From assembly GCF_000359125.1 (NCBI RefSeq), contig NZ_CAAF010000014.1:40830-104829 (forward strand): a stretch of DNA of 64,000 bases. Reading direction: 5' to 3'. The notes beneath the pieces were generated by a model, which did not search any database, had not been told where the DNA came from, and was given only the letters and a program-made list of their open reading frames with translations. Each line of letters starts with the position of its first letter. Position 1 is the first letter of the stretch. The position numbers and the translations under genes are program-made. Shown here piece by piece: positions 667 through 31,654 of the stretch. The stretch is from Mesorhizobium sp. STM 4661 (GTDB taxonomy: Bacteria; Pseudomonadota; Alphaproteobacteria; Rhizobiales; Rhizobiaceae).

Positions 667-3528
667 TCACCGCTCTTCGAGCACGGCCTCGACAATGGCA
701 ATAAAGTCATCGAGTGAGCGATCTCCGCGAATCTCGATGCGCGGAAGGTCGATGGGATCGCAGTCGAGGCCCGCCGGCCCGTGTCTGCCGCCGAAACCGA
801 TCCGATAGCCGCACTCCCTGGCCAGCCGGCCAAGCCGTCGGTCGGTGACAGAGAAGGGTGCGGCGAACGCCGTGGTTGGCCGACCGGTCCACCGCTCGAT
901 GAACATACGAGAGCGCAGGAGCTCGGCGGCCAGGTCAGAGCTCGACAGACCGTCGATCGCGCGATGCGTCGCCAGATGGCTTCCGAAGAACGCACCTTCG
1001 GCGGAGAGGCGTCGCACCGTCCCGGCGTCCATAAGCTGCGTCGGCGGACCGCTGTCGGCGTCCCACAGTGCACTTTCACCCACCAGGTCCGTCACCAGGA
1101 ACACTTCCGCGGTCAGGTCGTTCGCGCGCAAGATCGGCCAGGCATGGTCGGCAAAGTTCTGGAAGCCGTCATCGAAGGTGATGAGCACTGGGCGGCCAAC
1201 GAAAGGGTGACGGTTGGCGATGGACCCTTCCAGTTGCTCGGACCTGACAGCGTGAAAGCCATTGGCGCGCAGCCATGCCATCTGGCTGGCGAATGCGGCG
1301 GGTGTGAGCCGAAAACGGGTGAGCGCGGCCGGACCATCATCGGCGACGCTGTGATACATGAGGACAGGGATACGCCGCCGCCGCTCGCTACGTGCGACGT
1401 CGCGGCGCAAGGCCCTCGCCCCGCCCCAGACGATATTTCGCGCGACCCCGATTCCGACGGGCGCGCGGATTGGCATATGATCTATCATCGGTTCCGTCGC
1501 CACGTCGTCGGGTGACAGGCGGCGGAAGCGGTCTATGCGATAGAGCTCGGTCTGGATCGATTGCTCAAGCACGAGGCCTTCGGTCGCTGCCAGCGTCTCC
1601 GAGATCGCTTGTGCACCGAATGTGTTCCAGTCGAAGCCCGTCCTTTCAACATTGTCACGCAGCACGAATGCGTGTGCGCTGATGAAACTGCCGCCAGGTG
1701 CCAATGCCTCTGCGAATTTTTTGGCGATGCGCCGCAACTCGGCCAGATCATCCAGATAGTAGAGCACTTCCGAACAGAAGATCAGATCCATCTCGCCCGG
1801 CAGCGTGTCGGCAGAGAAATCCAGTACGCCGAATTCAATATTCGGCTGATCGCCGCATCGCGCGCGGGCCCGTTCGACGGCTATGGCGGAGATGTCGGTT
1901 GCGGTCAAATGGCCCACTCGCGGCGCCAGCTGCCGCGTGAAATGGCCCTCCGCGCAGGCCAGCTCAAGCGCCCGTCCGATGGGACCGGCAGGCAGAATTT
2001 CGAGCTGCCGCTGATATTTTTCCTGCTCATAGGACGAACCGTAGTTCCAGGGATCCTCGGTCGCGAAATAGCCATTCCAGAACGACGTGCGATCCTTGTC
2101 GTGCCTGGCCCGTGCTCGGCGCGGCGCCGCGGGAGGCTCCGCAGGTTCGGCGCTCGACCGAACCAGTTCCCGCGCTTCCTCGGCCAATTGGGCGAGTTTG
2201 CCGAAGTGACTGTCCGGATCGGACCGGCGTTCAAGCCGCTCAGGGGGCACGACATTCTGGATCAATTCAATCCAATGATCCCTTGTCACTGTCCCGAGTG
2301 CGCCGAACTGCACGACAGCCTCGATCCGGCCATCCATCATCAGGTTGGCATAGATTTGATCGATTCCTTGCGGAAGTTCGACCGTGGTCGGATTTCGAGC
2401 GTCGACGCGAATTCCAAGTGTCCGCGCCAGCCTGCGCGGCGCGGCAAGGTCGTCGACGTCGAGAAGCATTTGCTCAAGGCTATACTGGACGCGGCGAGCC
2501 GCTGCTGGATTGTCCCAGAGTTTGCTGAGTTCGGTGATCAATTCGGTTAGGGCGCCGCCGAACCTGTCCCACCCTGCAGCCAATTGCGCCGGCACCGACA
2601 GGCTTCCCACCAAAAGGCCATCGACGATCACCTTGGCGATCTCACGCGCCCATTTGCGTCCTGCCGGGAGCGCGCGCAAGGACTGCGGATCGATCGAGCG
2701 CGAGCCGCTGCCGCAATCCGACGCGGCGTTCCACAACGCGAACCACGCGAGTGCCTCGGAGGCGGTGCCGCCGTTCGCCTCGATCGCTCCATTGGCATGA
2801 GCCGATGCCGGGTGTTTGACCCTGGGATCAGGAGAAAAGCCACGGGCGATCACGATTTCCGCATCTGCCAGCATCTGCGTCGAATTGCGGGAGAGCGCGT
2901 TGGGGCTGATACGATAGAAAGCGAGCGGCTCGTCGACCATCACCCAATTTTTGCCCAGACGCGCGAGACGCTGCCACAGATCCCAGTCCTCGCAGGTGCG
3001 CAGCGACACATCGAAACCGCCCAACTCGACAATTGTCGCCCGGTCGACCAGCAGTGCGTGAGTGCGGATGGCACACCGGCGGGCGAATGTTTCGAAGGGC
3101 TGGGTCGCAACCTCCGTTGCGATGCTCGACGGGGTGACTTCGCCATCGGGCATCACGCGCCGGGAACCGCAATAGGCGGCCACTGCATCGGGAGCGGTTT
3201 TCAGTGTGGCCAGCATTTTCGCAAGGAAGCTGGCATCCACCCAATCGTCCGCATCCAGAAACATGAGCCAGTGGCCGCGCGCCGCCGAAATCCCGGTATT
3301 GCGCGCGCCGGCGGCGCTATACGCGCAAGAGCTCAACATCCGAAATCGGGCATCGCGCTCCACATAACCGGCGATGATCGCGGAGGTGCGGTCCGTGGAG
3401 GCGTCGTCGACGATGATCGCCTCCCAATCCACTATTTCCTGATCGAGAAGGCAATCGAGTGCGCGCGCCAGCGTTACCTCCGCGTTGTGCGCGGGAACCA
3501 CGATTGAAACCAAGGGATTGTGCGCCAC
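667..3528 (-). CDS. Trifunctional glycosyltransferase / SAM methyltransferase / polysaccharide deacetylase
   Basis: A 953-residue protein with three enzymatic parts. Residues 1-230 are a family 2 glycosyltransferase (VSIVVPAHN opening, DADDW at 92-96, the ED pair at 180-181). Residues about 250-470 are a linker of unknown fold. Residues 480-690 are a class I SAM methyltransferase resembling NodS (FWNGYFATEDPWNY entry, motif I ELACAEGHF around 522-530). Residues 718-953 are a NodB-type deacetylase (TFDDG at 784-788, SHLATH at 850-855). No signal peptide or membrane span is obvious, so it is probably cytoplasmic. It starts at GTG. The three activities together suggest synthesis of a modified surface glycan or oligosaccharide; the product is unknown. 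The domain calls are firm. Confidence 0.88.
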   Translation of the reverse strand: MAHNPLVSIVVPAHNAEVTLARALDCLLDQEIVDWEAIIVDDASTDRTSAIIAGYVERDARFRMLSSCAYSAAGARNTGISAARGHWLMFLDADDWVDASFLAKMLATLKTAPDAVAAYCGSRRVMPDGEVTPSSIATEVATQPFETFARRCAIRTHALLVDRATIVELGGFDVSLRTCEDWDLWQRLARLGKNWVMVDEPLAFYRISPNALSRNSTQMLADAEIVIARGFSPDPRVKHPASAHANGAIEANGGTASEALAWFALWNAASDCGSGSRSIDPQSLRALPAGRKWAREIAKVIVDGLLVGSLSVPAQLAAGWDRFGGALTELITELSKLWDNPAAARRVQYSLEQMLLDVDDLAAPRRLARTLGIRVDARNPTTVELPQGIDQIYANLMMDGRIEAVVQFGALGTVTRDHWIELIQNVVPPERLERRSDPDSHFGKLAQLAEEARELVRSSAEPAEPPAAPRRARARHDKDRTSFWNGYFATEDPWNYGSSYEQEKYQRQLEILPAGPIGRALELACAEGHFTRQLAPRVGHLTATDISAIAVERARARCGDQPNIEFGVLDFSADTLPGEMDLIFCSEVLYYLDDLAELRRIAKKFAEALAPGGSFISAHAFVLRDNVERTGFDWNTFGAQAISETLAATEGLVLEQSIQTELYRIDRFRRLSPDDVATEPMIDHMPIRAPVGIGVARNIVWGGARALRRDVARSERRRRIPVLMYHSVADDGPAALTRFRLTPAAFASQMAWLRANGFHAVRSEQLEGSIANRHPFVGRPVLITFDDGFQNFADHAWPILRANDLTAEVFLVTDLVGESALWDADSGPPTQLMDAGTVRRLSAEGAFFGSHLATHRAIDGLSSSDLAAELLRSRMFIERWTGRPTTAFAAPFSVTDRRLGRLARECGYRIGFGGRHGPAGLDCDPIDLPRIEIRGDRSLDDFIAIVEAVLEER

Positions 3529-3860: not shown

Positions 3861-4247
3861 GAATGCAATATCTATGGCAAACTGACTTCTTCTGCAATCT
3901 GGGGCGCAATAAATGCAAGCCCACTGAAGCTTTGGTGTGAATGACCGCAGCTATTGGGACTATTGCTCCCTTCCTATCGCCCGAAACGCCTCGATTCCGA
4001 GGTGCATTCTCGAACGGCCATTTCTCCGCGCGAAAGAAGACCTTCCTTCCCCCATTGGGCACGCATCGGAAGCTGATCGTCGCAGTATACAGCCGGGCGC
4101 GAGACAATATGTGCACCGCCAAACCAGCTAATTTAGATGTTTCTGATAAGTCTGCGCTACTTAATTGCGCTCCAGCAGCTATAGTCTGGCATTGTATTAA
4201 TCATTTCGATAGTAGATTGCGTCCGATGGCCTATTAGATTAACCAGT

Positions 4248-4263
4248 TGTGACTGCTATCACA
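4248..4263. promoter_or_regulatory. Perfect CRP-type palindrome TGTGA-N6-TCACA
   Basis: The 16-mer TGTGACTGCTATCACA matches the E. coli CRP consensus half-sites exactly, and the flanking T and A extend the symmetry to 18 bp. It lies 172 bp upstream of the first gene of an operon that ends with an adenylate cyclase. Rhizobial CRP-like regulators such as Clr prefer a somewhat different consensus, so the cognate regulator is an inference. Confidence 0.55.
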
Positions 4264-4435
4264 AAGAGGTGCGAGAGCGACACCAATCAGAACTCGTGCT
4301 TTTGTTGCTAGTCTAGGACACAAAAAAGGAACACACGAATCGGCTTAAGCCAAAAGGATTCCGGCTTGCGGGCTGGCTATTTGTCTGACATATTTCCCGT
4401 TTCCGAGTTTTGCACTGGGTAATAGGGGCATAAGG

Positions 4436-5095
4436 ATGGCGAAGGAATCTTCGAACGCCGCTTCTTCAGCAAATAAAGCGGATCTGATAAGTAATACAGA
4501 GGGAAACGGGCTGAACTTCATAGTGGGCCAGGCTCGCGAGAGCGGGGCCTCCGGCGACGCTGTAGGTGTCGACAAGATACGTGATCTGCTGTTCGGCAAC
4601 CAGATGCAGGACTATGACCGCCGTTTTTCCAAGCTTGAAGAACGCGTCTTGCAGCGCTTCAAGGATGTCGAATCCGAGGCCAAGCGCAATCTTGAAATGT
4701 ACGAGTCAAATGCAAAGAAGCAGGTCGATTCGCTTGCGGGGCAATTGCGGAACGAAAAAGACGCGCGAGCCGACGCCGACAAGGAGATTGACCGGAATCT
4801 TCGCGAGCAAAACCAGGCGCTTGAAAAGCAGGTGCGCGCATTGTCGGATCAATTGAGCGAGCTTGAGCGCGAAGTTGCGGACCGGATAAATCGAAACGAT
4901 CATTTGCTGCGTGAGGAAATCAAGCAAAAGAATGAAGGCGTTCAGATGCTGATCGAGAAAATGTTTTCCGATCTCAGCAACGTCAAGACCGACCGAAATC
5001 TTTTGGCTGGCCTGTTTGTCGAGGTTGCAAAATGTCTAAATCAGGATCCCGTCGGCAGCAAGAGCAACTCGGAGCGTAGTTGGAAAGTGAGTTGA
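4436..5095 (+). CDS. Coiled-coil protein, first gene of the GTPase/cyclase operon
   Basis: A 219-residue soluble protein without signal peptide or membrane span. Residues 1-45 are Ser/Ala-rich and probably disordered; KIRDLLFGNQMQDYDRRF around 47-64 is a compact motif before a long heptad-rich coiled coil (about 60-185); the C-terminal tail is short and polar. An AGGGG ribosome binding site sits 8 nt before the ATG. It is separated by 7 nt from the OmpA-like gene, so the two are almost certainly co-transcribed. Role unknown; a scaffold linking the cytoplasmic part of the OmpA-like protein to the GTPase or cyclase is a reasonable guess. Confidence 0.8.
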   Translation: MAKESSNAASSANKADLISNTEGNGLNFIVGQARESGASGDAVGVDKIRDLLFGNQMQDYDRRFSKLEERVLQRFKDVESEAKRNLEMYESNAKKQVDSLAGQLRNEKDARADADKEIDRNLREQNQALEKQVRALSDQLSELEREVADRINRNDHLLREEIKQKNEGVQMLIEKMFSDLSNVKTDRNLLAGLFVEVAKCLNQDPVGSKSNSERSWKVS

Positions 5096-5102
5096 TCGGA
5101 AC

Positions 5103-8100
5103 TTGACGTCGATCGTCGACCCAATCAGCCTTCCGCAAAGAGCAGCTTCGAACGATACAGAGATTGATCGCGAGGCTCTGGCTAGTCTTTTGGTCGAAAT
5201 TGCCCGGAACGTCGATCCGGACTATCGTGCGCGTTTCGACGGAGTTCCAACCGCCGATCCTCGCATGGAAACGCTGCGCCAGTTGCTGGTCGGCCGCGAA
5301 ATTTCCGAGCTTTCACGAGTTGCGCACCTGCTCGACGAACCTGAGCAGCTTGCGGCTGCAGTGGGGGGCGTTCTCCCCGATGCAGCCGCGCGTGCGTCTC
5401 ATGCGCAACTCGGCGAGGCCCTTGCGCCAGCTGTCGAGAGGGCTGTGCAACGGTCCATCCAGAAGAACCCGCGCACGCTGACGGATATATTGTACCCGGT
5501 GTTTCTGCCGGCTATTCGCAAGTCGATCGGCGAAAAGATCGACCAGACCTTTCAATCGCTGAATGAATCTTTAAGACATATATTTACCTGGCGTGGACTT
5601 AAGTGGAGATTTGAAGCTTGGAGAACGGGCGCAAGCTTTTCAGAAGTTGTTCTTAAGCATTCTCTTGTCTATCGTGTAGAACACGTCTTTCTCATTAACC
5701 GAAATTCCGGGCTTTTGATTACGCATGTAACTGCCGAAAACGCAACGAGCGAAGACCCTCAACTAATTTCTTCGATGCTTAGTGCAATTCAAGATTTCGT
5801 AAAGGACTCGTTTAACGAGAAAGAACAGAGCGGCCTGGACACTATCCGTTTCGGGGAGCTTCGTCTCTGGTCGGAAGTTGGACCGTTTGCGACCTTGGTT
5901 GCCGTGATCCGGGGAAATCCGCCAGAGGAATTACATGAAATAATTCGCGATGTATTGCTTCGCATCCATGATGAATCCTCACAGGCTTTAGAGCAGTTTG
6001 ACGGCGACAGTTCGCAGTTGGCCGGCGTAGAGACGCAGTTGCAGACCTGTGTTGAACTGAAGCAGGAGGAATCGAACCAGGGATTTCCGTGGCTGGTGGT
6101 GGCTGCAGTCCTGCTGGTTTTGATTCCGGCGGGCGGTTGGTTCCTTCTTTCCTGGCAATCCGGGCAGCGCTGGCAGGCCTATGTGTCACGACTGGGAACC
6201 CAGCCGGGCATCATCGTTGCCGAACAAAAAATGCGTGATGGCCAATTCTATATTGCCGGCCTGAGAGACCCGCTTGCCGCCGACCCGCAGTCGCTGTTGT
6301 CTGGAACGGAGGTCGATCCCGCCCGCGTTCATTCACGCTGGCAATTCTATCAGAGCCTTGAGCCGGAGTTCGTGTTGAAGCGGCTAACGGCGTCGCTGAC
6401 CCCGCCGGATTCAGTACGACTTTCGATCGTCAACGATCGCATCGTTGCCGAGGGTGAGGCTACCGACACGTGGATCAACCGGGCGCGGGCCGCCGCCCAA
6501 CAACTTTCGGCAGGCGGACCGGTATTCGACATCTCCAAGGTCCGTGATGTGAGCCCCGAAGCACGCGAGGCGGAGCGCTGGCAGGCCTATGTGTCGCGAC
6601 TGGAGACCCAGCCGGGCATCATCGTTGCCGAACAAAAGGTGCGCGATGGCCAATTCTATATTGCCGGCCTGAGAGACCCGCTTGCCGCCGACCCGCAGTC
6701 GCTGTTGTCCGGAACGCAGGTCGATCCCGCCCGCGTTCATTCACAGTGGCAATTCTATCAGAGCCTTGAGCCGGAGTTCGTGTTGAAGCGGCTGACGGCG
6801 TCGCTGACCCCGCCGAAATCGGTTCGGCTTTCGATCGTCAATGATCGCATCGTTGCCGAGGGTGAGGCTCCCGACACCTGGATAGATCGGGCGCGGGCCG
6901 CCGCCCAACAGCTTTCGGCAGGTGGACCGGCATTCGACATCTCCAAGGTTCGTGATGTGAGCCCCGAAGCACGCGCGGCGGAGCGCTGGCAGGCCTATGT
7001 GTCGCGACTGGGGAGCCAGCCGGGCATCATCGTTGCCGAACAAAAAATGCGCGATGGCCAATTCTATATTGCCGGCCTGAGAGACCCGCTTGCCGCCGAC
7101 CCGCAGGCTCTGCTGTCCGGAACGGGGGTTGATCTTGCCCGCGTTCATTCGCAGTGGCAATTCTATCAGAGCCTTGATCCGAAGTTCGTGGTGAAGCGGC
7201 TGACGGCGTCGCTGACCCCGCCGAAATCGGTTCGGCTTTCGATCGTCGAGGATCGCATCGTTGCCGAGGGTGAGGCTCCCGACACCTGGATAGATCGGGC
7301 GCGCGCAGCGGCCCGACAGCTTTCGGCAGGCGGACCGGAATTCGACATCTCCAAGGTCCGTGATGTGAGCCCCGAAGCACGCGCGGCGGAGCATTGGCAG
7401 CATTATGTGTCGCGACTTGAGGCCCAACCGGGAATCATCGTCGCCCAACAAACGGCGAGGGGCGGACATTTCTACATTTCCGGCCTGAGAGACCCGCTTG
7501 CCGCCGACCCGCAGGCTCTGCTGTCCGGAACGAAGGTTGATCCCGCCCGCGTTCATTCGCAGTGGCAATTCTATCAGAGCCTTGATCCGAAGTTCGTGGT
7601 GAAGCGGCTGACGGCGTCGCTGACCCCGCCGAAATCGGTTCAGCTTTCGATCGTCCAGGATCGCATCGTTGTCGTGGGTGAGGCTCCTGCCGCCTGGATC
7701 AACCGGGCGCGGGCCGCCGCTCAGCAGCTGTCCGCGGACGGAGTGGTTCTGGATGTCTCACAGCTGCGTGAGCTGAGCCTTGCGGAACTCAATAATTTGA
7801 GAGAGGCCATCCAGGCGACCGATATTCTCTTCTATTCCGGCAAGGTTGTGCCGGGACCAGAACAGACGCCGGTTCTCGACAGATTGGCGGATCAATTAAA
7901 GGAATTCGCCCAAAATGCCCGCAAGTCAGGCGTGACAGCTCGGTTCATGTTGACCGGCCATTCGGACGCCACGGGCCGTGAGACGTCCAACGCGTCGATC
8001 AGCGCCGCCCGCGCCGAGACAGTTCGTGCGCTTCTCAACAAGCGCGGCGTCGCTCCGGAATTGCTGCTGGTTCGGGGCGCGGGCACCTTTGAGCCGGCGG

Positions 8101-8168
8101 TGCCTGAAAATAGTCGAACTGGGAGCTCCGCCAATCGCCGGGTTTCGGTTACGGTAAACCTAGACTAG
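5103..8168 (+). CDS. Membrane-anchored OmpA-family protein with four tandem BON-like repeats
   Basis: A 1021-residue protein starting at TTG. Residues 1-327 form a cytoplasmic-type N-terminal region rich in acidic and leucine residues; 328-351 is a single transmembrane helix (FPWLVVAAVLLVLIPAGGWF). Residues 357-900 are four repeats of exactly 136 residues, each starting with W-Q-x-Y-V-S-R-L and containing a VRLSIVNDRIVAEGEAP-like stretch that resembles a BON domain. Residues about 915-1021 are an OmpA/MotB peptidoglycan-binding domain (TGHSDATG followed by RAETVRALL). The expected topology is N-in, with repeats and OmpA domain in the periplasm gripping the wall. It probably passes envelope information to the GTPase and cyclase encoded just downstream; that role is inference. 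Confidence 0.88.
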   Translation: MTSIVDPISLPQRAASNDTEIDREALASLLVEIARNVDPDYRARFDGVPTADPRMETLRQLLVGREISELSRVAHLLDEPEQLAAAVGGVLPDAAARASHAQLGEALAPAVERAVQRSIQKNPRTLTDILYPVFLPAIRKSIGEKIDQTFQSLNESLRHIFTWRGLKWRFEAWRTGASFSEVVLKHSLVYRVEHVFLINRNSGLLITHVTAENATSEDPQLISSMLSAIQDFVKDSFNEKEQSGLDTIRFGELRLWSEVGPFATLVAVIRGNPPEELHEIIRDVLLRIHDESSQALEQFDGDSSQLAGVETQLQTCVELKQEESNQGFPWLVVAAVLLVLIPAGGWFLLSWQSGQRWQAYVSRLGTQPGIIVAEQKMRDGQFYIAGLRDPLAADPQSLLSGTEVDPARVHSRWQFYQSLEPEFVLKRLTASLTPPDSVRLSIVNDRIVAEGEATDTWINRARAAAQQLSAGGPVFDISKVRDVSPEAREAERWQAYVSRLETQPGIIVAEQKVRDGQFYIAGLRDPLAADPQSLLSGTQVDPARVHSQWQFYQSLEPEFVLKRLTASLTPPKSVRLSIVNDRIVAEGEAPDTWIDRARAAAQQLSAGGPAFDISKVRDVSPEARAAERWQAYVSRLGSQPGIIVAEQKMRDGQFYIAGLRDPLAADPQALLSGTGVDLARVHSQWQFYQSLDPKFVVKRLTASLTPPKSVRLSIVEDRIVAEGEAPDTWIDRARAAARQLSAGGPEFDISKVRDVSPEARAAEHWQHYVSRLEAQPGIIVAQQTARGGHFYISGLRDPLAADPQALLSGTKVDPARVHSQWQFYQSLDPKFVVKRLTASLTPPKSVQLSIVQDRIVVVGEAPAAWINRARAAAQQLSADGVVLDVSQLRELSLAELNNLREAIQATDILFYSGKVVPGPEQTPVLDRLADQLKEFAQNARKSGVTARFMLTGHSDATGRETSNASISAARAETVRALLNKRGVAPELLLVRGAGTFEPAVPENSRTGSSANRRVSVTVNLD
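6171..7802 (+). repeat. Four tandem 408-bp coding repeats inside the OmpA-like gene
   Basis: Copies begin with the TGG codon at 6171, 6579, 6987 and 7395, a constant period of 408 bp (136 codons). Long stretches are identical at DNA level between copies 1-3, while copy 4 is the most diverged at both ends. The near identity points to recent duplication or gene conversion and makes the copy number liable to change by recombination. Confidence 0.95.
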
Positions 8169-8181
8169 TGCGGAGTCCGGG

Positions 8182-8676
8182 ATGTTGCAAAAAAAGATCT
8201 GCATGTTGGGCGGGTTCGCTGTCGGAAAGACGAGTCTGGTTCGCAGGTTTGTGCAAAGCATCTTTTCAGAAACCTACTTGACCACGGTGGGAGTGAAAAT
8301 CGACAAGAAGAGTGTCGCACTCCCGGACAAAACCGTGGATCTGATTTTGTGGGATTTGGCCGGCGAAGACGATATCGGCTCATTCCGCGTCAGCTATGTG
8401 CGAGGTGCGACCGGGCTCGTGCTTGTCGTCGATGGGACCCGCGCCGCTACTCTTGCCGTGGCGCTCACGCTGCGCGAGCGGGCCGAGGCCGAATTCGGCG
8501 CCATGCCGTTTGTATTGCTGTTCAACAAATCCGATCTGGCCGATCGTTGGGCAATATCGGATAGTGAGATTAACGAACTGAGGCAACTTGGATGGCAAAT
8601 CTATCTAACAAGCGCGCTTTCGGGTGAACATGTTGACGATGCATTTCGTCAGCTTGCTTCGATGGTCACCAAATAG
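8182..8676 (+). CDS. Ras/Rab-like small GTPase
   Basis: A 164-residue single-domain GTPase. Visible motifs: P-loop GGFAVGKT at 10-17, switch I Thr in TTVGVKID (34-41), Walker B/G3 WDLAGED at 57-63, G4 NKSD at 115-118 and G5 TSAL at 143-146. In eukaryotic Ras and Rab proteins the G3 motif is DTAGQE; here the catalytic Gln position is Glu62, so intrinsic hydrolysis may be slow or depend on a partner. There is no CAAX box or C-terminal cysteine. A CGGAG ribosome binding site precedes the ATG; the gene starts 13 nt after the OmpA-like gene and ends 3 nt before the cyclase. It is a plausible switch between envelope sensor and cyclase. Confidence 0.92.
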   Translation: MLQKKICMLGGFAVGKTSLVRRFVQSIFSETYLTTVGVKIDKKSVALPDKTVDLILWDLAGEDDIGSFRVSYVRGATGLVLVVDGTRAATLAVALTLRERAEAEFGAMPFVLLFNKSDLADRWAISDSEINELRQLGWQIYLTSALSGEHVDDAFRQLASMVTK

Positions 8677-8679
8677 ACC

Positions 8680-9750
8680 ATGCATGGATTGCCAAGAGAA
8701 GTCAGAAGCTGGATTTACAATTTCTTTTACAGCGAGCACTCTGTCGCATATTTGAAAATTGACGCCCAGCTTTGCATAGCTGCGAAGGGCGGCAGTGTTA
8801 AACATTACGGACTCTCATCACTTCGCATTGGTAAGCCTGTTGCCGAGCAGCTTGAATTCATGGAAGGTTTGCTGCCTTGCCCGGAGCTTCCATATCATAT
8901 GGCCATGGTCGAACTGCCCAGCGGGCGTGTCGCGGACCTTCATCTTTTTGCTGACAATGCCTGCGTGTGGCTGCTCTTTCTTGACGCCACTGCCGAACGC
9001 GACAATAGGCAGCGGCTTCAACAGAAGGCTTATGAAATGACGCTCCTGCAAGAGAGGGAGCGTCAACTCAACGAGAAATTGCAATCGACGAACGAGGCGT
9101 TGAGGCAGAGCCAAGAGGGACTGTCGCGTGAATACCAGCGCGCCGAAAGCCTACTCCTCAACATTCTTCCGGCGTCGATCGCGGAGCGGTTAAAAGCGGA
9201 CGAACAAATTGCAGACAACCACGCAGAGGTGAGTGTGCTTTTTGCCGACATCGTCGGCTTTACGGAAAGAGCGCGGAGCGTCGGAGCCGAGACGACGCTC
9301 GCTATTTTAAATTACTTCTTCAAGGCGGCGGATCTGCTCTCGGAACGATACGGCTGCGAAAAGATCAAGACAATCGGCGATTGTGTGATGGTGGTCGCTG
9401 GCCTGCCCGCCGCGCGATCCGATCATGCAGAAGCCCTTGCGCATTATGCACTTGAACTGCGGAAAGCGGTTAAGCGCGAACGCTTCGCAGGAGAACCGCT
9501 AAGACTCAGAATTGGAATTCACTCAGGACCAATCGTCGCGGGCGTCATAGGCAAAAGGCGGTTTGCCTATGACCTGTGGGGCGAAACCGTTAATCTCGCC
9601 GCACGTATTCAAACGTCCGCGGAGCCCGATGAAATCCGTATTTCGGATGCAACTCACAAACTGCTTGGACCAAATTTTACTTGCGACCCACTCGCGGAAA
9701 CGGAATTGCGTGGTACAGGTCGTGTGCGAATGTGGCGGCTCCCGGCCTGA
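8680..9750 (+). CDS. Class III adenylate cyclase with N-terminal PAS-like domain
   Basis: A 356-residue cytoplasmic protein. Residues 1-105 look like a PAS-type sensor fold, 110-175 form a coiled-coil signalling helix, and 180-356 are the catalytic domain. Metal-binding Asp190 (FADIVGFT) and Asp234 (KTIGD), base-selecting Lys230 and Asp298 (AYDLWGE), and transition-state Asn305 and Arg309 are all present. The Lys/Asp pair predicts ATP rather than GTP as substrate, so the product should be cAMP. It is the last gene of the operon, 3 nt after the GTPase. A complete set of residues in one chain means an active homodimer is expected. Confidence 0.92.
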   Translation: MHGLPREVRSWIYNFFYSEHSVAYLKIDAQLCIAAKGGSVKHYGLSSLRIGKPVAEQLEFMEGLLPCPELPYHMAMVELPSGRVADLHLFADNACVWLLFLDATAERDNRQRLQQKAYEMTLLQERERQLNEKLQSTNEALRQSQEGLSREYQRAESLLLNILPASIAERLKADEQIADNHAEVSVLFADIVGFTERARSVGAETTLAILNYFFKAADLLSERYGCEKIKTIGDCVMVVAGLPAARSDHAEALAHYALELRKAVKRERFAGEPLRLRIGIHSGPIVAGVIGKRRFAYDLWGETVNLAARIQTSAEPDEIRISDATHKLLGPNFTCDPLAETELRGTGRVRMWRLPA

Positions 9751-10121: not shown

Positions 10122-10196
10122 TGGAGCGGGTGAAGCGATTCGAACGCTCGACCCCAACCTTGGCAAGGTTGTGCTCTACCCCTGAGCTACACCCGC
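10122..10196 (-). tRNA. tRNA-Gly (anticodon GCC)
   Basis: Read on the minus strand this is a 75-nt cloverleaf with encoded CCA: acceptor GCGGGTG pairs with CACCCGC over 7 bp, the D-arm contains GCTCAGGGGTAGAGC, the T-arm GTTCGAAT. The anticodon loop CTTGCCAAG gives GCC (complement of 10162-10164), decoding GGC and GGU. A 9-bp hairpin (10199-10225) directly before the 5' end may sit in the precursor. Confidence 0.97.
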
Positions 10197-24494: not shown

Positions 24495-26080
24495 GCGCGC
24501 AAAAATGGATCGGCGGCAAATGGCGGCCTCGGCTGGCCACGATCGTCGTTGCCATCCTGATCATGGTGATGGCGCTGCCGCTGGTCGGCCTGTTCTTCTT
24601 CAGGCTTTATGAGAACCAGCTGATCCGCCAGACCGAGGCCGAGCTGATCGCGCAAGGCGCGGTGCTCGCCGCGATCTATGCGCAGAATGCGCGCGAGGCC
24701 GGCATTCCGGCCGAGAAACTCGGCGCGCTGATGCCGCCCCAGGAAAGCGACACTGCGAGCCGGAGCGACAATCCCGACTACCGGCCGATCGAGCCGAGCC
24801 TCGATCTCGCCTCCGACTATGTCTTGCCGACCCGACCGGCGGCCGTTACCGCCAGTCTCGACCCAGTCTTTGCGGCGATCGGCATTCGCCTGTCCGGCAT
24901 TCTCGAAGAGACGCAGAAAACCACGCTGGCCGGCTTCCGGCTGCTCGATCCCAGAGGCGTCGTCATTGCAGGGCGCGAGGAGGTCGGGCAGTCGCTCGCC
25001 GACGTCGAGGAGGTGCGCGCAGCACTTTCCGGCCGCTATGCCAGTGAACTCAGGCTGCGGATTCCCGACCAGCCGGCGCCGCCGCTCTATTCGGTCAGCC
25101 GCGGCACGAAAGTGCGCGTCTTCGTCGCCCTGCCGGTCGCCGTCGACGGCAAGGTCGCCGGCGTCGTCTATTTGTCGCGGACGCCGAACAACATCGTCAA
25201 GCATCTCTATGGCGAGCGCGGCAAGGTGACGCTCGCGGCCATCGCCATCCTCGGCGGCACGCTGCTCATCGCCTTTGTCTTCCTGCGCACCGTCAGCCGG
25301 CCGATCTACGCGCTGATGGAGCGGACAAAGCGCATTGCCGCCGGCGACCGTACGGCGATCAGGCCGCTCGACCATCACGGCACGCGCGAGATGGCCGAGC
25401 TTTCCGCCGCTTTCCTCGACATGGCCGAAAAGCTGCATGCGCGCTCCGACAGCATCCAGACCTTTGCCACCCATGTCTCGCACGAACTCAAATCACCGCT
25501 GACGGCGATCCAGGGCGCGGCGGAGCTGCTGCGCGATTCGGGCGCCGCCATGGACGAGGCCGAGCGGCAGCGGTTTTCGAACAATATCGTCACCGATGCC
25601 GGGCGGCTCAATCTGCTGGTGCGTCGCCTGCTCGACCTGGCGCGCGCCGAAAACCTCGCCCCCAGTGGCGAAACCACATCGATTGGCGCAGCACTGGCGC
25701 TGCTGCCCGTGGACAACAGACTGGCGGTCCAGATCGAGGCGGGCGGCGATATCGGCCTGCGCATCTCGGGCGAGAACGCGGCAATCGTGCTTGCCAATCT
25801 GATCGACAATTCGGCCAGGCACGGCGCGGCCGCGGTTTCGCTCACGGCAAGCAGCGCGGACGGCAAGGCGACGATATTGGCGAGCGATGACGGCGCCGGC
25901 ATTTCACCGAGCAATCGGGACCGCATCTTCGAGCCATTCTTCACCACGCGCCGCGATTCAGGCGGCACCGGCATGGGACTGGGCATCGTGCTGGCCCTCC
26001 TGAAAGCGCATGATGGCACGATCCGGCTGGTTGACTCCGCGCCCGGCACGCGCTTCGAGATCACTTTGCCGGTTGTATGA
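24482..26080 (+). CDS. Sensor histidine kinase
   Basis: A 532-residue membrane kinase. One transmembrane helix (about 18-40), a periplasmic sensor region of some 210 residues, a second helix (about 250-272), then HAMP (SRPIYALMERTKRIAAGDR), the dimerisation domain with phospho-His in THVSHELKSPLTAIQG, and the ATPase domain with N box NLIDNSARHG, DDGAGI and GTGMGLGIVLA. It should phosphorylate the response regulator encoded just before it. The ATG lies inside the end of that gene (13-bp overlap). Signal unknown. Confidence 0.94.
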   Translation: MRRLSAQKWIGGKWRPRLATIVVAILIMVMALPLVGLFFFRLYENQLIRQTEAELIAQGAVLAAIYAQNAREAGIPAEKLGALMPPQESDTASRSDNPDYRPIEPSLDLASDYVLPTRPAAVTASLDPVFAAIGIRLSGILEETQKTTLAGFRLLDPRGVVIAGREEVGQSLADVEEVRAALSGRYASELRLRIPDQPAPPLYSVSRGTKVRVFVALPVAVDGKVAGVVYLSRTPNNIVKHLYGERGKVTLAAIAILGGTLLIAFVFLRTVSRPIYALMERTKRIAAGDRTAIRPLDHHGTREMAELSAAFLDMAEKLHARSDSIQTFATHVSHELKSPLTAIQGAAELLRDSGAAMDEAERQRFSNNIVTDAGRLNLLVRRLLDLARAENLAPSGETTSIGAALALLPVDNRLAVQIEAGGDIGLRISGENAAIVLANLIDNSARHGAAAVSLTASSADGKATILASDDGAGISPSNRDRIFEPFFTTRRDSGGTGMGLGIVLALLKAHDGTIRLVDSAPGTRFEITLPVV

Positions 26081-26090
26081 ATTGGAGCCT

Positions 26091-26116
26091 GATTCCGAAA
26101 ACCGGCTTTCGGGATC
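26091..26116. repeat. Short GATTCCGAAA palindrome
   Basis: Arms GATTCCGAAA and TTTCGGGATC match at 9 of 10 positions around ACCGGC. Similar short palindromes occur at 45584, 46617 and 49460. It lies between the kinase and oxidoreductase genes and could act as a weak terminator. Confidence 0.55.
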
Positions 26117-26143
26117 ATGCGCTAGAGCTGGAGAGGCGAAAGA

Positions 26144-27310
26144 GTGCGCTACGACATCGTCATCATCGGCGGAGCCATCGTCGGCTCCTCGGTCGCCTAT
26201 TATCTGCGCGAGGAAGGGTTTTCGGGTAGGATCGCGCTGGTCGAGCGCGATCCGCAATTCGCCCATGCGGCGACGACGCTGTCCTGCGCTTCCATCCGCC
26301 AGCAATTCTCGATCCCCGAAAACATCCGCCTGTCGCGGTTCACGCTAAAACTGTTCCGGCGGCTGACGGAGGTTTTTGGCGCGGACGCCGATATCGGCTT
26401 TCGCGAAGGCGGCTATCTCATCCTGGCCGGCGAGAACGGCCTGCCGGTCCTCAAGTCCAATCACGAGGCGCAGATGGCCGAGGGCGCCGACATCGTGCTG
26501 GAAGATGCCGACCAGCTTACGCGCCGCTTCCCGTGGCTGTCGACTGAGGGCATCACCGCCGGCGCCTATGGCCGCAGCGGCGAGGGCTGGTTCGACGCGC
26601 ATGCGATGCTGATGCTGTTCCGCAAGGCGCTGCGCGAGAAAAAGATCGATTTCATCACGGCCGATGTCACCGGCATCGAGCGGCAAGGCGATCGCGTCAC
26701 CAGCGTCAGCCTCGACAATGGCGAGCGGCTCGAAGCCGGCATCGTCGTCAACGCCGCCGGGCCGAATGCCGGCAAGGTTGCAGGCATGGCCGGACTGGCG
26801 CTGCCGGTCGAGCCGCGCAAGCGCAATGTCTTCGTCTTCGAGGCGCGCGAAAAATATGCCGACATGCCGCTGCTGGTCGATCCCAGCGGCATCTATGTCC
26901 GGCCGGAAGGCTCGGTCTACATCACCGGCGGCGCCGAGCCGGAAGAGGGCGACGGCCCCGCCGATCCCCAGGATTTCGAGCCGGACTGGCCGCTGTTCGA
27001 AGAGGTGATCTGGCCGGTGCTGGCGACCCGCATTCCGGCCTTCGAAGCGATCAAGCCGACGCGGGCATGGGCCGGGCACTACGACTACAACACGCTCGAC
27101 CAGAACGCGGTGATCGGGCCACACCCTGAGGTGACGAATTTCATCTTCGCCAACGGGTTTTCCGGCCACGGCCTGCAGCAGGCGCCGGCGGTCGGCAAGG
27201 CGCTGGCGGAGCTGATCGTGCATGGCGGCTACCGCACGGTCGACTGCTCGGCGTTCGGGTATGAGCGAGTGGCGGAAGGGCGGGCGTTTCGGGAGTTGAA
27301 TGTGATTTGA
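26144..27310 (+). CDS. FAD-dependent oxidoreductase (DAO family)
   Basis: A 388-residue D-amino-acid-oxidase/sarcosine-oxidase-like flavoprotein. The FAD-binding start [36 protein letters not shown] in the middle, [15 protein letters not shown] and the C-terminal [27 protein letters not shown] are typical of DAO enzymes of the FOXRED1/dehydrogenase type. It probably oxidises a secondary amine or amino-acid derivative; the substrate is not predictable. The start is GTG with GAGAGG upstream. It follows the kinase gene by 63 bp including a palindrome, so co-transcription is uncertain. Confidence 0.9.
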
Positions 27311-27355
27311 GGCTGGCGGACCGTGCAGAATAAGCCGTCTGTCGAGTTCCCGCCC

Positions 27356-27511
27356 ACCCCCCTCTGTCCTGCCGGACATCTCCCCCGCAAGGGGGGAGAT
27401 CGGCAGCTTGACTGGCGACTCCAACCTTCCAACGCTGGTGATTGGCGAAAGCCGGGATGACAGCCAATCTCCCTCCTTGCGGGGGAGATGGCCGGCAGGC
27501 CAGAGGGGGGT
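27356..27511. repeat. Dispersed palindromic element (RIME-like), copy 3
   Basis: Outer arms ACCCCCCTCTG/CAGAGGGGGGT, inner CTCCCCCGCAAGGGGGGAGAT hairpin and a GATTGGCGAAAGCC centre. It sits in the 412-bp gap before leuD; the remaining gap (27512-27722) should hold the leuD promoter, but no confident site could be assigned. Confidence 0.85.
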
Positions 27512-27722
27512 GCTGTCCCTCCGACATTTCCTTGATTTCTGCCACACGATGCACCGCCGTCTAAGTCGCAACCCGCACCACGAGGCGGTCAAGTCGAAGC
27601 GCGTATCGGCCGCGTCGCGCAATGGACCAGGTGCCGTGCATGAACAGTTGCCTTTTATTTGCCCGCGGCTTTGTGTAAACCGGGCGGCAGCAAAATCCCC
27701 GCAACGAAACACGGGCAAAACC

Positions 27723-28328
27723 ATGGAAAAATTCACCAAGCTCACCGGCGTCGCGGCACCCATGCCGATCGTCAATGTCGATACCGACATGATCATCCCC
27801 AAGGATTATCTCAAGACGATCAAGCGCACCGGGCTCGGCACCGGCCTGTTCGCCGAAATGCGCTACAAGGACGACGGCTCGGAAAATCCGGACTTCGTGC
27901 TCAACAAGCCGGCCTACCGCAAGGCGCAGATCCTGGTCGCCGGCGACAATTTCGGCTGCGGCTCGAGCCGCGAGCACGCGCCGTGGGCGCTGCTCGACTT
28001 CGGCATCCGCTGCGTCATCTCGACCTCGTTCGCCGACATTTTCTACAACAACTGCTTCAAGAACGGCATTTTGCCGATCACTGTCAGCCCCGAGGATCTG
28101 GAAAAGCTGATGGACGACGCTTCGCGCGGCTCCAACGCGACGCTGTCGATCGATCTCGAAGCCAAGGAAATCCGCGGTCCCGATGGCGGCGTGGTCAAAT
28201 TCGACCTTGACGACTTCAAGCGGCACTGCCTGCTCAACGGCCTCGACGACATCGGCCTGACCATGGAGAAGGCCGGCGCCATCGCCTCGTTCGAGAAGAA
28301 GAACGCCGCTGAGCGCCCCTGGGCCTGA
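27723..28328 (+). CDS. leuD: 3-isopropylmalate dehydratase small subunit
   Basis: A 201-residue LeuD, which with LeuC isomerises 2-isopropylmalate to 3-isopropylmalate in leucine synthesis. Diagnostic stretches are [16 protein letters not shown], the swivelling-domain motif [17 protein letters not shown] and [17 protein letters not shown]. The ATG at 27723 gives the standard family N-terminus. leuB lies 3.3 kb downstream on the same strand; leuC is not in the window. Confidence 0.97.
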
Positions 28329-28385
28329 GCGATCTGGACGGATAGCCCGGCCGTTGCAGGCCGGGTTCGTGGCGGAGGGACAGTC

Positions 28386-29315
28386 ATGACACGTTCGCTT
28401 CTTGCCGGCGCCTGCGCGCTGGCGTGGATGCTGATGCCGGTGGCTGGCGCGCATGCACAGACCGACATGGTGCTCGTGCCGGCTGACGATCCGTCCGGCG
28501 GGGCCGCCGATCAGGGCGCGTCGAGCAATGCGGCCCTAGCCGACGATGACAGCCGGGGGCCGATCCCGTTCGAGGGTGGGCAGCTGACCATCACCCAGCA
28601 GGAGCAGTATGGCGAGAAGGTGCTGGCCTATGACGGCAAGCAGCTGGCGAGCAATTACGACGTGTTCTTCGACAGAATAGTCAAGATCGGCGGCGTCGAT
28701 GTAGCGCTGGTCGATGTCGGCGACGGCGGCAACCAGTGCGGGCCGGCCAAGGTGATCGTGTGGAAGCCGGAAGGCGGCACGATCCAGACCACGACGGTCG
28801 AGCAGGACGAATGCGGCGCGCCGCCCGCGGCGGTGTCCGACAACGCCATCTATTTCGTGCCTTATCTCCTGCCGGGGGATTCGAAGCCAGCGCTGCAATG
28901 GTCGCCGACGGACGGGCTGACGATATCAGGCAATCTGACCTACATGCCGGAACCCGGCACGGACTGGAAGGACATCGACCCGGCGAAATACGACAACATC
29001 ATCGACGCCTTCCACAATGAGGCCGTCTACAGGGAGGCCGAGAAACTGCTCGGCAAGGAGATGCCTGACATGGCGACCAGCCTGCTGGTCGGCGGCGGCA
29101 CGGAGAAGACGGCGTCGGGCGCCTTCTACGCCAGCGGCTGCGTGCCGCATGATTGCGGCGGCAATGACGGTTTCATGGCGGTCGATCCGGCCAAGCACAC
29201 GCTCTATTTCGCCCGCCGCGGCGACAAACCCGAGGCGGATACGTGGCCGGCGGTGAAGACATGGCCGGCCGACGTGAAGGCGGCGTTGGACAAGGCGCTG
29301 GGGTCGGCGAACTAG
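28386..29315 (+). CDS. Secreted protein with C-terminal Ivy-like domain
   Basis: A 309-residue exported protein: signal peptide about 1-25 with cleavage after AHA, an acidic linker (26-60), a beta-rich domain (about 65-195) of no recognised family, and a C-terminal domain (about 205-305) with SGCVPHDCGGNDGFMAVDP. The C-x-P-H-D-C loop is the hallmark of the Ivy family of periplasmic C-type lysozyme inhibitors, in which the His of that loop plugs the lysozyme active site. Ivy proteins are about 130 residues, so this one would be a longer two-part version. The inhibitor role is inference from the motif; export is well supported. Confidence 0.65.
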   Translation: MTRSLLAGACALAWMLMPVAGAHAQTDMVLVPADDPSGGAADQGASSNAALADDDSRGPIPFEGGQLTITQQEQYGEKVLAYDGKQLASNYDVFFDRIVKIGGVDVALVDVGDGGNQCGPAKVIVWKPEGGTIQTTTVEQDECGAPPAAVSDNAIYFVPYLLPGDSKPALQWSPTDGLTISGNLTYMPEPGTDWKDIDPAKYDNIIDAFHNEAVYREAEKLLGKEMPDMATSLLVGGGTEKTASGAFYASGCVPHDCGGNDGFMAVDPAKHTLYFARRGDKPEADTWPAVKTWPADVKAALDKALGSAN

Positions 29316-29367
29316 AATCTGGACTGCCTACGCTCGATCGCTCCCTCTGGGCGACGCCCGTCCGGCC

Positions 29368-30024
29368 CTACTGCTTCCCCTGGATGGTCAGCGAGAAGGC
29401 TGGCGGCGTGGATTTAGGCGGTGGCGGATTTGCCGCCCATGCGAAGACGCCGAAGCCGAGGATCGCCAAAATCGTCCCAAAAACCAGCCCACATTGAAGC
29501 GATGCGAAGCGATTTCGGACGACGTTGAAACCGGCGTCCGCGTTGAATACAGGAAAGTCAGCGGTGGCCTTGTCGACCAAGTCCATATCGGTGGCGTCAG
29601 TGCCGCCCAGCTTCAATCGCCCGTGTGCCTCGTCAACGGCTTTCACATAACCCTCGAACGAGTTTACGCCCGCCGGAAATTCGGCTTGATAGCGTGTAAT
29701 CAGACGATCCCGCACCCTGGTGAATTCAGGCTCCGTGGCCACAGCGAACTCGCGAACCGTCCTGGTCTCGACAACAAGCACTCGGAATGCCGGACCCAGT
29801 ATGGCAGCAAGACCGATGAACCCCACAACAAGACCGCCAAGGGCAAACAGCAGCCTCTGCTGGTCTGCCGTTGGATCAAGCGCTCCAAGCGATGTCAGGG
29901 AACTTCCCGCAAAGACGGCCGCCGCGGTCGCCACCACCCCGCCTACGAGCCATTTGGCGGTATCCCTCAGCGACTGTGTCGCGGCCGCCATCGCTGCCAC
30001 GACTGGCGAGGCCGGTTCGCTCAT
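29368..30024 (-). CDS. Membrane protein of unknown function, second of a pair
   Basis: A 218-residue protein with two N-terminal hydrophobic helices (about 25-48 and 58-82), a charged soluble stretch (about 88-180) and a third helix (about 183-202) before a proline-rich tail. The ATG at 30024 overlaps the stop of the upstream gene as ATGA, so translation is coupled. No family was recognised. The layout (soluble 134-residue protein followed by a membrane protein) hints at a two-component envelope unit. Confidence 0.7.
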   Translation of the reverse strand: MSEPASPVVAAMAAATQSLRDTAKWLVGGVVATAAAVFAGSSLTSLGALDPTADQQRLLFALGGLVVGFIGLAAILGPAFRVLVVETRTVREFAVATEPEFTRVRDRLITRYQAEFPAGVNSFEGYVKAVDEAHGRLKLGGTDATDMDLVDKATADFPVFNADAGFNVVRNRFASLQCGLVFGTILAILGFGVFAWAANPPPPKSTPPAFSLTIQGKQ

Positions 30025-30425
30025 TTTTCCAGCGGCCCCGGTTCTCCGAAGTCGATCGCGAGCGGAAGATCGCTCGTAGCCTGCTCGATTTGCTGCCCCC
30101 ACCGGCTAATCTCGTGAAGGTCAACCTCCTGGGCTCTGAACAGGATGATGCTCGGATCGGGCCTGCCTGGATCGGCCTTCATGCTGCCGATATCATTGAG
30201 GAGTTGCTCGACATCGAGTTTGCCGTCTGCCTTTTTGAGCACGGTGACATAGGTGCCTACTATGTCACTAGGATTTGCAGGCACGCTGCGAGGTTTTATC
30301 GGTATGCCGGCAACGTCTCCTCCAGCAGGCTGATAGCCGGGAACCTGAATTTCGAGCATCTCGCCATTGCATGAAACCCGGATGATGCCATCCTTGTCCG
30401 GAATGCCGATCACGCGCGTCACCAT
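30021..30425 (-). CDS. Hypothetical protein, first of a coupled pair
   Basis: A 134-residue soluble protein opening MVTRVIGIPDKDGIIRVSC, with a beta-rich N-terminal half and a helical C-terminal half. A good TTTGGAG ribosome binding site lies before the ATG at 30425. It overlaps the downstream membrane gene by 4 bp. No domain was recognised. The divergent gap to the RidA gene should contain promoters for both directions. Confidence 0.65.
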   Translation of the reverse strand: MVTRVIGIPDKDGIIRVSCNGEMLEIQVPGYQPAGGDVAGIPIKPRSVPANPSDIVGTYVTVLKKADGKLDVEQLLNDIGSMKADPGRPDPSIILFRAQEVDLHEISRWGQQIEQATSDLPLAIDFGEPGPLEK

Positions 30426-30590
30426 GGCGATCTCCAAATAGTGAGATGGCAAGAGTGCCACAACTCATGCGCGATTGACAGCGGGTGCTGGAAGCCGAGG
30501 ATGCACGTCCAGGACAACAGTCAGCTCGGCTTGGCCCATGGCCGAGTGGGCGCTTTTCCTGCAGGATGGCGGCACGATTTGCGAGGCACC

Positions 30591-30974
30591 ATGCGCAAAC
30601 TCATTTCCACCGGTTCGCCCTTCGAGAAGACCGCCGGTTATTCGCGTGCCGTGGTGCGGGGCGACTGGTGTTTCGTTTCCGGAACGACCGGCTACGACTA
30701 TACGACTATGGCGATGCCCGAGACGGTGGAGGCGCAGACGCGCAATTGCCTGGCGACGACCGCCAAGGCGCTAAGAGACGGCGGCTTCGAGATGGCCGAT
30801 GTGGTGCGGGCGCATTACTACATCACCGACCAGGCCTTCGTGGATATCGTCTTTCCGATCCTCGGCGAGGCGTTTGGCGAGATCAGGCCGGCGGCGACGA
30901 TGATCGTCTGCCAGCTCAACAGACCGGAAATGAAGATCGAGATCGAAGTCACGGCGCTGCGGCGGACGGCCTGA
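30591..30974 (+). CDS. RidA family protein (YjgF/YER057c)
   Basis: A 127-residue protein of the RidA superfamily, which hydrolyses reactive enamine/imine intermediates from PLP enzymes. Seen here: an N-terminal ISTGSPFEKTAGYSRAV, FVSGTTGYDY, the helix VEAQTRNCLATTAKAL, and the C-terminal RPAATMIVCQLNRPEMKIEIEVTA that normally carries the active-site Arg and Glu. The ATG at 30591 is the one fitting the family; an upstream frame crosses the promoter. It shares one base with the VOC gene (TGATG), so the two are translationally coupled. Confidence 0.9.
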   Translation: MRKLISTGSPFEKTAGYSRAVVRGDWCFVSGTTGYDYTTMAMPETVEAQTRNCLATTAKALRDGGFEMADVVRAHYYITDQAFVDIVFPILGEAFGEIRPAATMIVCQLNRPEMKIEIEVTALRRTA

Positions 30975-31324
30975 TGAAAGTCCGGCGCATCGTCGCAAAC
31001 ATAGACACGCAGGACATCGCGGCGGCCAAGCGGTTCTACCAGGACGTGCTCGGCCTCGATCTCAAGATGGATCTTGGCTGGATCGCCACCTATGGCTCGC
31101 AAGAGACAATGACCGTGCAGATCAGCTTCATGGCCCAGGGCGGCTCCGGCACGCCGGTGCCGGATCTGTCGATCGAGGTCGACGATGTCGATGCGGCGCT
31201 CGGCGCGATGAAGACCGCCGGCTTCGCCATCGAATACGGGCCGGCCGACGAGCCTTGGGGCGTGCGCCGCTTCTATGTGCGCGATCCGCTCGGCAGGCTG
31301 GTCAACATTCTCTCGCATCGGTGA
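30974..31324 (+). CDS. VOC (glyoxalase/bleomycin-resistance) family protein
   Basis: A 116-residue vicinal-oxygen-chelate protein: VANIDTQDIAAAKRFYQDVLGLDL at the start, PDLSIEVDDVDAAL in the middle and GVRRFYVRDPLGRLVNILSH at the end, the beta-alpha-beta-beta-beta plan of the fold. Such small proteins bind metals for dioxygenase, isomerase or resistance functions; which applies here is unknown. Its start overlaps the RidA stop by one base. Confidence 0.88.
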   Translation: MKVRRIVANIDTQDIAAAKRFYQDVLGLDLKMDLGWIATYGSQETMTVQISFMAQGGSGTPVPDLSIEVDDVDAALGAMKTAGFAIEYGPADEPWGVRRFYVRDPLGRLVNILSHR

Positions 31325-31379
31325 TGCCTTTGAAGCGCTGAGGTGGGTTGCTGATCTTGGGAGACGCAGGCGGGACAGT

Positions 31380-31536
31380 ACCCCCCCTCTGTCCTACCGG
31401 ACAGCCCTGCCCGCAAGGGGGGAGATCGGCCGTCATCCTCACTTTCGCTAATCTCCAACGCTGAAAGCGACGCGGGGCGGTGAGGTTGTCAATCTCCCCC
31501 CTTGCGGGGGAGATGCCCGGCAGGGCAGAGGGGGGT
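31380..31536. repeat. Dispersed palindromic element (RIME-like), copy 4
   Basis: Outer arms ACCCCCCCTCTG/CAGAGGGGGGT, inner stems around CCCGCAAGGGGGGAGAT and CTCCCCCCTTGCGGGGGAGAT. It occupies half of the 330-bp gap between the VOC gene and leuB; the rest must contain the leuB promoter. Confidence 0.85.
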
Positions 31537-31654
31537 GTGAAGGGTCGCCAGCAGAGCGTGGCTGATCCTTCATCGCTGCGTTCCTTCTTGCGCGCCGGGC
31601 GCTTGGCGTTTAGCAAGGCCGCGGTTTCTCCAAACAATATTGGGACGGTTCTCC

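Follow-up and report, generated by a model that had tools for sequence, protein, structure and literature searches.

A conserved Group 1 Rup-type operon of Mesorhizobium with a predicted longin domain in its wall anchor and a predicted cAMP output

Introduction

Can the state of the bacterial cell wall be passed through a Ras-like GTPase to cyclic AMP (cAMP)? The question is raised by four co-directional open reading frames (ORFs) in a 64,000-nucleotide stretch of DNA from Mesorhizobium sp. STM 4661 (hereafter the window, carried by a genome of 6.5 Mb), which encode a coiled-coil protein, an OmpA-type wall anchor, a Ras/Rab-like GTPase and a predicted class III adenylate cyclase (Table 1), with spacers of 7, 13 and 3 nucleotides between them. 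An earlier note on this DNA had read the four genes as an operon that could relay envelope status via the GTPase to cAMP, and knew of no characterised bacterial pathway of this kind. Position, strand and spacing of the genes are as claimed there, the unit is conserved, and its parts suit a path from the envelope over the GTPase to cAMP; the novelty of such a unit is not supported, since a neighbourhood of coiled-coil protein, protein with unknown domain, transmembrane segment and OmpA domain, Rup GTPase and output protein is already described in the main text of PMC4316618. The four-gene unit is real, widely conserved and apparently uncharacterised, and its kind has been known since 2014. The main new element is a predicted longin domain in the anchor, a candidate regulator of the GTPase; this domain, the four periplasmic repeats of 136 residues in the same protein and the absence of the G3 glutamine from the GTPase go beyond the earlier note.

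Table 1. Coordinates of the operon and its features in the window
Feature	Positions	Strand	Basis or remark
Coiled-coil protein, predicted cytoplasmic partner	4436..5095	+	219 residues, ATG start; ORF, heads operon in homologous loci
[LIVM]RxLLxG motif of coiled-coil protein, common to anchor	4577..4597	+	Motif count across loci
OmpA-type wall anchor	5103..8168	+	1021 residues, TTG start; ORF and Pfam
[LIVM]RxLLxG motif of anchor, residues 58-64	5274..5294	+	Motif count across loci
Predicted longin domain, residues 189-322, predicted cytoplasmic side	5667..6068	+	AlphaFold2 model; Foldseek and VIA-align matches to longin/roadblock folds; weak profile support
Predicted transmembrane helix, residues ~329-349	6087..6149	+	Strongest hydrophobic stretch, hydropathy peak at 331; taken as one helix
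Four tandem periplasmic repeats of 136 residues (408 bp)	6168..7799	+	Tandem repeat in DNA at 6166-7729, ~3.8 copies
OmpA domain (residues 919-1012, including Asp955 and Arg970), predicted to bind peptidoglycan	7857..8138	+	Pfam PF00691, E 3.6e-12
Ras/Rab-like (Group 1 Rup-type) GTPase	8182..8676	+	164 residues; ORF, Pfam, motifs
G3 motif DLAGEDD, lacking the glutamine of Ras position 61	8353..8373	+	Glu62 in the window; Gln in 0/105 sequences
Class III adenylate cyclase (predicted)	8680..9750	+	356 residues; ORF, Pfam, structure model
PAS-like N-terminal coupling domain, residues 1-103, common to outputs of differing type	8680..8988	+	Model and homologue searches
Invariant Gln114-Gln115 close to the N-terminal end of the signalling helix	9019..9024	+	Output alignment
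Cyclase catalytic domain, residues 179-354	9214..9741	+	Pfam

Relation to the Group 1 Rup systems

The Rup GTPases were defined by Wuichet and Sogaard-Andersen, with Group 1 lacking the glutamine of the G3 motif (PMC4316618). According to the main text of that paper, Group 1 GTPases are very similar to eukaryotic Rab, Ran, Ras and Rho, and are encoded beside a coiled-coil protein, a protein with unknown domain, transmembrane segment and OmpA domain, and an output protein, typically a diguanylate cyclase/phosphodiesterase or a histidine kinase with an invariant glutamine in its N-terminal region; a Mesorhizobium loti member is named, a role in a signalling system is proposed, and no Rup interaction had been characterised experimentally as of 2014 (PMC4316618). 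No later study of the Group 1 Rup system was found among open-licence PMC papers.

The window operon shares each of these traits: its GTPase is a small member of the Ras superfamily (below 240 residues) with G1 to G5 motifs and no catalytic glutamine in G3, the genes for the coiled-coil protein and for the protein with unknown domain, transmembrane segment and OmpA end adjoin it, and the output carries an invariant glutamine in its N-terminal region, which may be the one of the published logo. It differs in its output, a predicted adenylate cyclase in place of the typical cyclic di-GMP (c-di-GMP) enzyme or histidine kinase; in the main text of PMC4316618 the term "adenylate cyclase" does not occur, and "cyclase" occurs once, as diguanylate cyclase. 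Judged from its sequence, the window operon would be a Group 1 Rup variant with a predicted cAMP output. To the account in that main text we add the predicted longin fold, outputs of PP2C and HD-domain type, repeated swapping of outputs and a variant without a detected output. The actinobacterial conservon (Cvn), an analogy drawn in PMC4316618, is likewise a four-gene GTPase signalling unit, but the window operon has neither a separate roadblock gene nor a histidine kinase.

Conservation of the gene order

A scan with the GTPase alone yielded 80 loci, the best of 347 encoding a relative. The anchor domain lies upstream on the same strand in 72 of them, the eight misses being contig ends at which the C-terminal OmpA end is still visible, and in 71 the operon begins with a homologue of the coiled-coil gene, the nine misses falling at contig ends. 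Downstream on the same strand, 79 loci encode the N-terminal domain of the cyclase type; at the lone miss (L078) the output is a hybrid histidine kinase whose N-terminus has diverged. The arrangement is more than chance, since the same order is met with in several phyla: Pseudomonadota, Cyanobacteriota, Thermodesulfobacteriota and Myxococcota.

Among 398 genomes drawn evenly across the phylum (GTPase cut-off E 1e-20), the anchor domain was found in 51, the GTPase in 49 and both in 48. The mismatches include a GTPase gene cut by a contig end (G004) and two contigs that stop inside the OmpA gene (G254, G266). In 46 of the 48 genomes the two lie on one contig at a distance of ~2 kb or less, separated by the remainder of the OmpA gene, and in G172 and G269 they are on separate contigs. 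The N-terminal coupling domain of the outputs occurs in 37 of the 398 genomes, at 38 places, all within 82 nucleotides downstream of a GTPase match, and 36 of the 51 genomes with an anchor possess it. A second GTPase match that is remote from the anchor occurs in G025 (near a contig end) and in G017.

Within the genus, where a GTPase cut-off of E 1e-15 was used and types were split by E-value, 91 of 146 genomes encode the GTPase, 80 of them in the full type (E <1e-80) and 11 only in a divergent type (E 1e-22 to 1e-24). The whole operon was also found on three plasmid records, one of which carries the annotation "Rab family GTPase"; at E 1e-10 the GTPase has no match among phage records. Rhizobium copies, some of them plasmid-borne, group with those of Mesorhizobium, as would be expected if the genes were a co-expressed cluster kept together by joint horizontal transfer only, with no relay between the products. 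This explanation is highly improbable in our judgement, as the order is kept in all four phyla and the catalytic domain alone is swapped.

The wall anchor and its predicted longin domain

The anchor consists of an N-terminal region of ~325 residues, a helix, four repeats and the C-terminal OmpA domain. Both the Pfam match and the hydropathy profile agree with the earlier description of a peptidoglycan-binding protein with one helix (Table 1); Asp955 and Arg970 are presumably the peptidoglycan-binding residues, as in other OmpA domains. The predicted layout places the OmpA end in the periplasm and, beyond the single helix, the longin domain in the cytosol. Each repeat copy is exactly 136 residues long, and the copies are 71-93% identical in protein and 79-94% in DNA. 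Among the 120 anchor homologues listed, 69 have 885 residues, 11 have 749 and 10 have 1021, that is, steps of 136 residues, which suggests that whole repeats are gained and lost and would fit an anchor whose span across the periplasm can be adjusted.

The predicted longin domain has the topology b-b-a-b-b-b-a-a expected of such folds, and its nearest folds by Z are longins and subunits of Rab guanine nucleotide exchange factors (RabGEFs) or of adaptors; background on longin and roadblock domains was taken from PMC10933270. In a profile search of the PDB the top match of the region was a roadblock protein, at a weak E of 0.062. The anchor resembles the longin RabGEFs (Mon1-Ccz1, Fuzzy-Inturned, TRAPP) in its predicted fold and in the Rab-like GTPase encoded next to it, but is bacterial and membrane-spanning, with a wall-binding OmpA end, and its exchange activity is only putative. 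With the MglA/MglB polarity module it would share the combination of a bacterial Ras-like GTPase and a regulator of roadblock/longin fold; unlike the free roadblock protein MglB, however, the regulator is built into a membrane wall anchor. PF03259 has no match in the genome carrying the window, so that the separate Roadblock/LC7 gene of MglA/MglB systems is absent there; roadblock genes are present in other genomes carrying the operon.

The coiled-coil protein matches no Pfam family at the curated cut-off, and its designation was made by eye and from weak matches to coiled-coil families. It has the motif [LIVM]RxLLxG in common with the anchor: the motif is present in 70 of 71 coiled-coil proteins and 58 of 72 anchors, compared with 4 of 1242 other ORFs, and could mark the point at which the two proteins meet, a possible route of contact.

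The GTPase and its missing glutamine

The GTPase belongs to the Pfam family Ras (PF00071, E 3.9e-28), and its closest solved structure by sequence is Rab23 (E 1.9e-24). All of the G motifs had been claimed for it; G1, G2, G4 and G5 are indeed complete, but G3 is without the glutamine of Ras position 61. In 105 GTPase sequences (this number, like that of the 90 outputs below, does not count independent cases, because some of the loci fetched are overlapping or closely related) the Gly-Lys of G1, the Asp and Gly of G3, G4 and G5 are kept throughout, G2 has Thr in 99 and Ser in 6, and the Ras-61 position holds Glu in 93. Ras Q61E hydrolyses GTP faster than wild-type Ras, so that Glu62 may by analogy matter for hydrolysis on its own. 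Supply of the glutamine in trans is a speculation of PMC4316618.

The absence of this glutamine from all 105 GTPases makes a helper of hydrolysis plausible. The longin domain might accordingly serve as a GTPase-activating platform, as MglB does for MglA, which would keep the GTPase off near the wall, and on loss of wall contact GTP-bound GTPase would build up and reach the cyclase. The MglB structures 3t12 and 3t1r are among the Foldseek matches of the domain, and its weak sequence kinship points to roadblock proteins. The closest folds by Z, however, are longins and subunits of RabGEFs or adaptors, and Arg270 of the anchor is not kept across all lineages, so that no invariant arginine finger is evident in that column; we regard such a platform as unlikely, though worth keeping in view.

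The coupling domain and its interchangeable outputs

The cyclase matches Guanylate_cyc (PF00211, E 6.6e-49), and the full ATP-type active site that had been claimed for it is present, comprising the six adenylate-type catalytic positions D190, D234, K230, D298, N305 and R309. By analogy with class III cyclase structures we take D190 and D234 to bind metal, K230 and D298 to contact adenine, and N305 and R309 to act on the transition state; the product is predicted to be cAMP. In the model a PAS-like domain is followed by a helix (residues 104-162) that leads into the catalytic domain, the PAS-like fold being predicted from the order of strands and helices and from the alignment with soluble guanylate cyclase. 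That enzyme likewise combines PAS-like domain, helix and class III catalytic domain, and the models align over residues 22-356, but the root mean square deviation along the full chain is at least ~12 A, and the window cyclase has no haem domain and has ATP-type residues.

One coupling domain precedes differing catalytic domains. Pfam assigns the outputs of the window, L068, L069, L072, L079, L081 (two copies), L112-L116 and L118 to the class III cyclases, those of L119-L122 to GGDEF-EAL proteins, those of L078, L124 and L125 to histidine kinases with receiver, and those of L071 and L073-L076 to SpoIIE-type PP2C phosphatases; L077 is the N-domain alone, the contig of L070 stops inside the N-domain, and the outputs of 67 Mesorhizobium/Rhizobium-type loci were typed by similarity to the catalytic domain of the window. 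When residues 1-140 of a single cyclase output served as query, 645 proteins were retrieved, and among the 120 listed 103 have PF00211, 10 have PF07228, 1 has histidine kinase domains and 6 have no listed domain. N-terminal identities are 68-88%, and the phosphatases and the kinase lie at 68-75%. Of the 90 fetched outputs, 89 retain Gln114-Gln115 (the remaining one has a gap), as do all 120 listed homologues of an output. For L078 and L119-L122 the N-termini give only a weak alignment to the coupling domain, Gln115 being in register (hhalign P 0.0038 compared with 0.098-0.83 for 20 shuffles, at a probability of only 8.8%). On a tree of 35 anchor and GTPase rows the output label needs 8 changes, the minimum possible being 6; the cyclases of Mesorhizobium/Rhizobium type fall into a single clade (100/100), next to which stand rows from alpha- and betaproteobacteria that have PP2C or a different cyclase subtype (subtype labels by eye).

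The GTPase could also position the complex in the cell, as a polarity factor or scaffold like MglA, with no relay, and a ligand of the PAS-like domain would then set cAMP synthesis. PAS folds commonly bind ligands, and in the divergent variants no coupling domain was detected alongside the genes for anchor and GTPase. By contrast, the coupling domain stands solely beside these GTPases (38 of 38 places in the 398 genomes), and the catalytic domains vary while coupling domain and GTPase stay, as would be expected of a direct partner. A mere positioning role is rather improbable on this evidence.

Elsewhere on the contig of the operon (C76 of genome G000), within ~30 kb upstream (18326 and 25113-38276), there are three more class III cyclase places as well as the strongest domain for binding of cyclic nucleotide monophosphates in the genome.

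Proposed mechanism

With moderate confidence, resting on sequence comparison and structure models, we propose that in this Group 1 Rup-type system the anchor protein, with its predicted wall-binding end and longin domain, controls the GTPase, which in turn would switch the cyclase via its PAS-like domain. The state of the wall or envelope, read by the OmpA end, would shift the spacing or pairing of the anchor; paired longin domains would bring in the GTPase and, in the manner of longin RabGEFs, most likely accelerate its nucleotide exchange (a likelier role than GTPase activation), and the coiled-coil protein would hold the assembly together. The GTP-bound GTPase would then bind the PAS-like domain and alter the signalling helix, and the invariant glutamine of the output helix would likely aid GTP hydrolysis, so that the output would terminate the signal itself. 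Where other bacteria have a phosphatase, a histidine kinase or a c-di-GMP enzyme as output, this is likely driven by the same receptor and switch.

Several observations weigh against this mechanism. As for the receptor, the mean pLDDT (predicted local distance difference test) is 64 over the whole 345-residue anchor model, and residues 211-250, including the central helix of the longin domain, reach block values of only 56-69. The longin region has an hhalign score of 24.4 (shuffles at most 16.4) at a probability of only 13.7%, and none of 36 longin-region sequences matches a longin or roadblock family of Pfam. Longin domains are also used by SNAREs and adaptors without control of a GTPase, and the wall state as input follows solely from the OmpA domain.

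As for the partnership, the scattering of homologues that would have spoken against a common function is clearly not seen, and the exceptions are two. One genome of 4.9 Mb (G037, L117) has the anchor, with its longin-type region, and the coiled-coil gene, and a GTPase of this type was not found in it. In G017 no anchor domain lies in the 9.7 kb examined upstream of the second GTPase; the next gene encodes an HD-domain protein (PF13487) with the N-terminal motif QLARESML, so that GTPase and output form a stand-alone pair (L140:9706-11252). Furthermore, 15 of the 51 anchor genomes are without a detected coupling domain: five belong to family f40, the outputs of which are GGDEF-EAL proteins in the four scanned, six have the divergent variant, and the others are G037, G164, G168 and G254. 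The divergent variant, a second Rup-like one (L127-L131; G059, G191, G055, G187 and G369, genomes of the same order as that of the window, G055 being of its genus) keeps anchor domain and GTPase, with DTDG[DN]F as G3 and no coupling domain detected. Since G3 is without its glutamine here as well, supply by the output cannot be the general answer, and this universal explanation of the missing residue is weakened. Finally, PF00211 occurs at 10 places in the genome carrying the window, so that cAMP has other likely sources.

Flanking regions and regulation

A perfect CRP-like palindrome, TTGTGACTGCTATCACAA (TTGTGA-N6-TCACAA), lies at 4247-4264, 189 nucleotides upstream of the operon. It is the one match in the window, with 0.01 expected, and six such sites occur in the genome; the shorter pattern TGTGA-N6-TCACA likewise has no other match in the window. 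At other loci even the closest match around the operon deviates at 2-6 positions, and in several near relatives the equivalent site is TTATGGCTGCTATCACAA; CRP feedback as conserved regulation was rejected, the palindrome not being kept in the relatives examined. The promoter scan gave fewer sites than its shuffles, and Rfam found nothing beyond the neighbouring tRNA. A role as toxin or defence system was likewise rejected: PADLOC gave only a similarity of the catalytic domain to Pycsar cyclases (PycC, E 7.6e-16), besides weak matches of coiled-coil or OmpA type, next to the lack of phage matches given above.

The tRNA gene (10125-10196, minus strand) lies just downstream of the operon and is a possible integration site, because copies of the operon are plasmid-borne elsewhere. 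Divergent from the operon, positions 667-3528 (minus strand) encode a protein of 953 residues that by eye resembles a fusion of glycosyltransferase, methyltransferase and polysaccharide deacetylase; plasmid pWSM1497 has a glycosyltransferase gene at the matching place.

Significance

The predicted longin domain in the usual partner of Group 1 Rup GTPases provides a concrete candidate regulator. Tentatively, and as a possibility rather than an expectation, sequence and model together would allow for a bacterial, transmembrane, wall-tethered longin regulator of a Rab-like GTPase, that is, a receptor-type RabGEF whose GTPase would drive, via one coupling domain, enzymes that can replace one another (cAMP cyclase, PP2C phosphatase, histidine kinase or c-di-GMP enzyme). 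If so, the longin-Rab partnership of eukaryotic membrane traffic would have an operon-encoded counterpart in bacteria that serves envelope sensing, and whether the pairing of Rab and longin is older than eukaryotes would become a question directly testable in a bacterium. The operon would offer a bacterial route from wall status over a Ras-like switch to cAMP, and with its plug-in outputs the coupling domain would be a natural tool to find the contacts of the GTPase.

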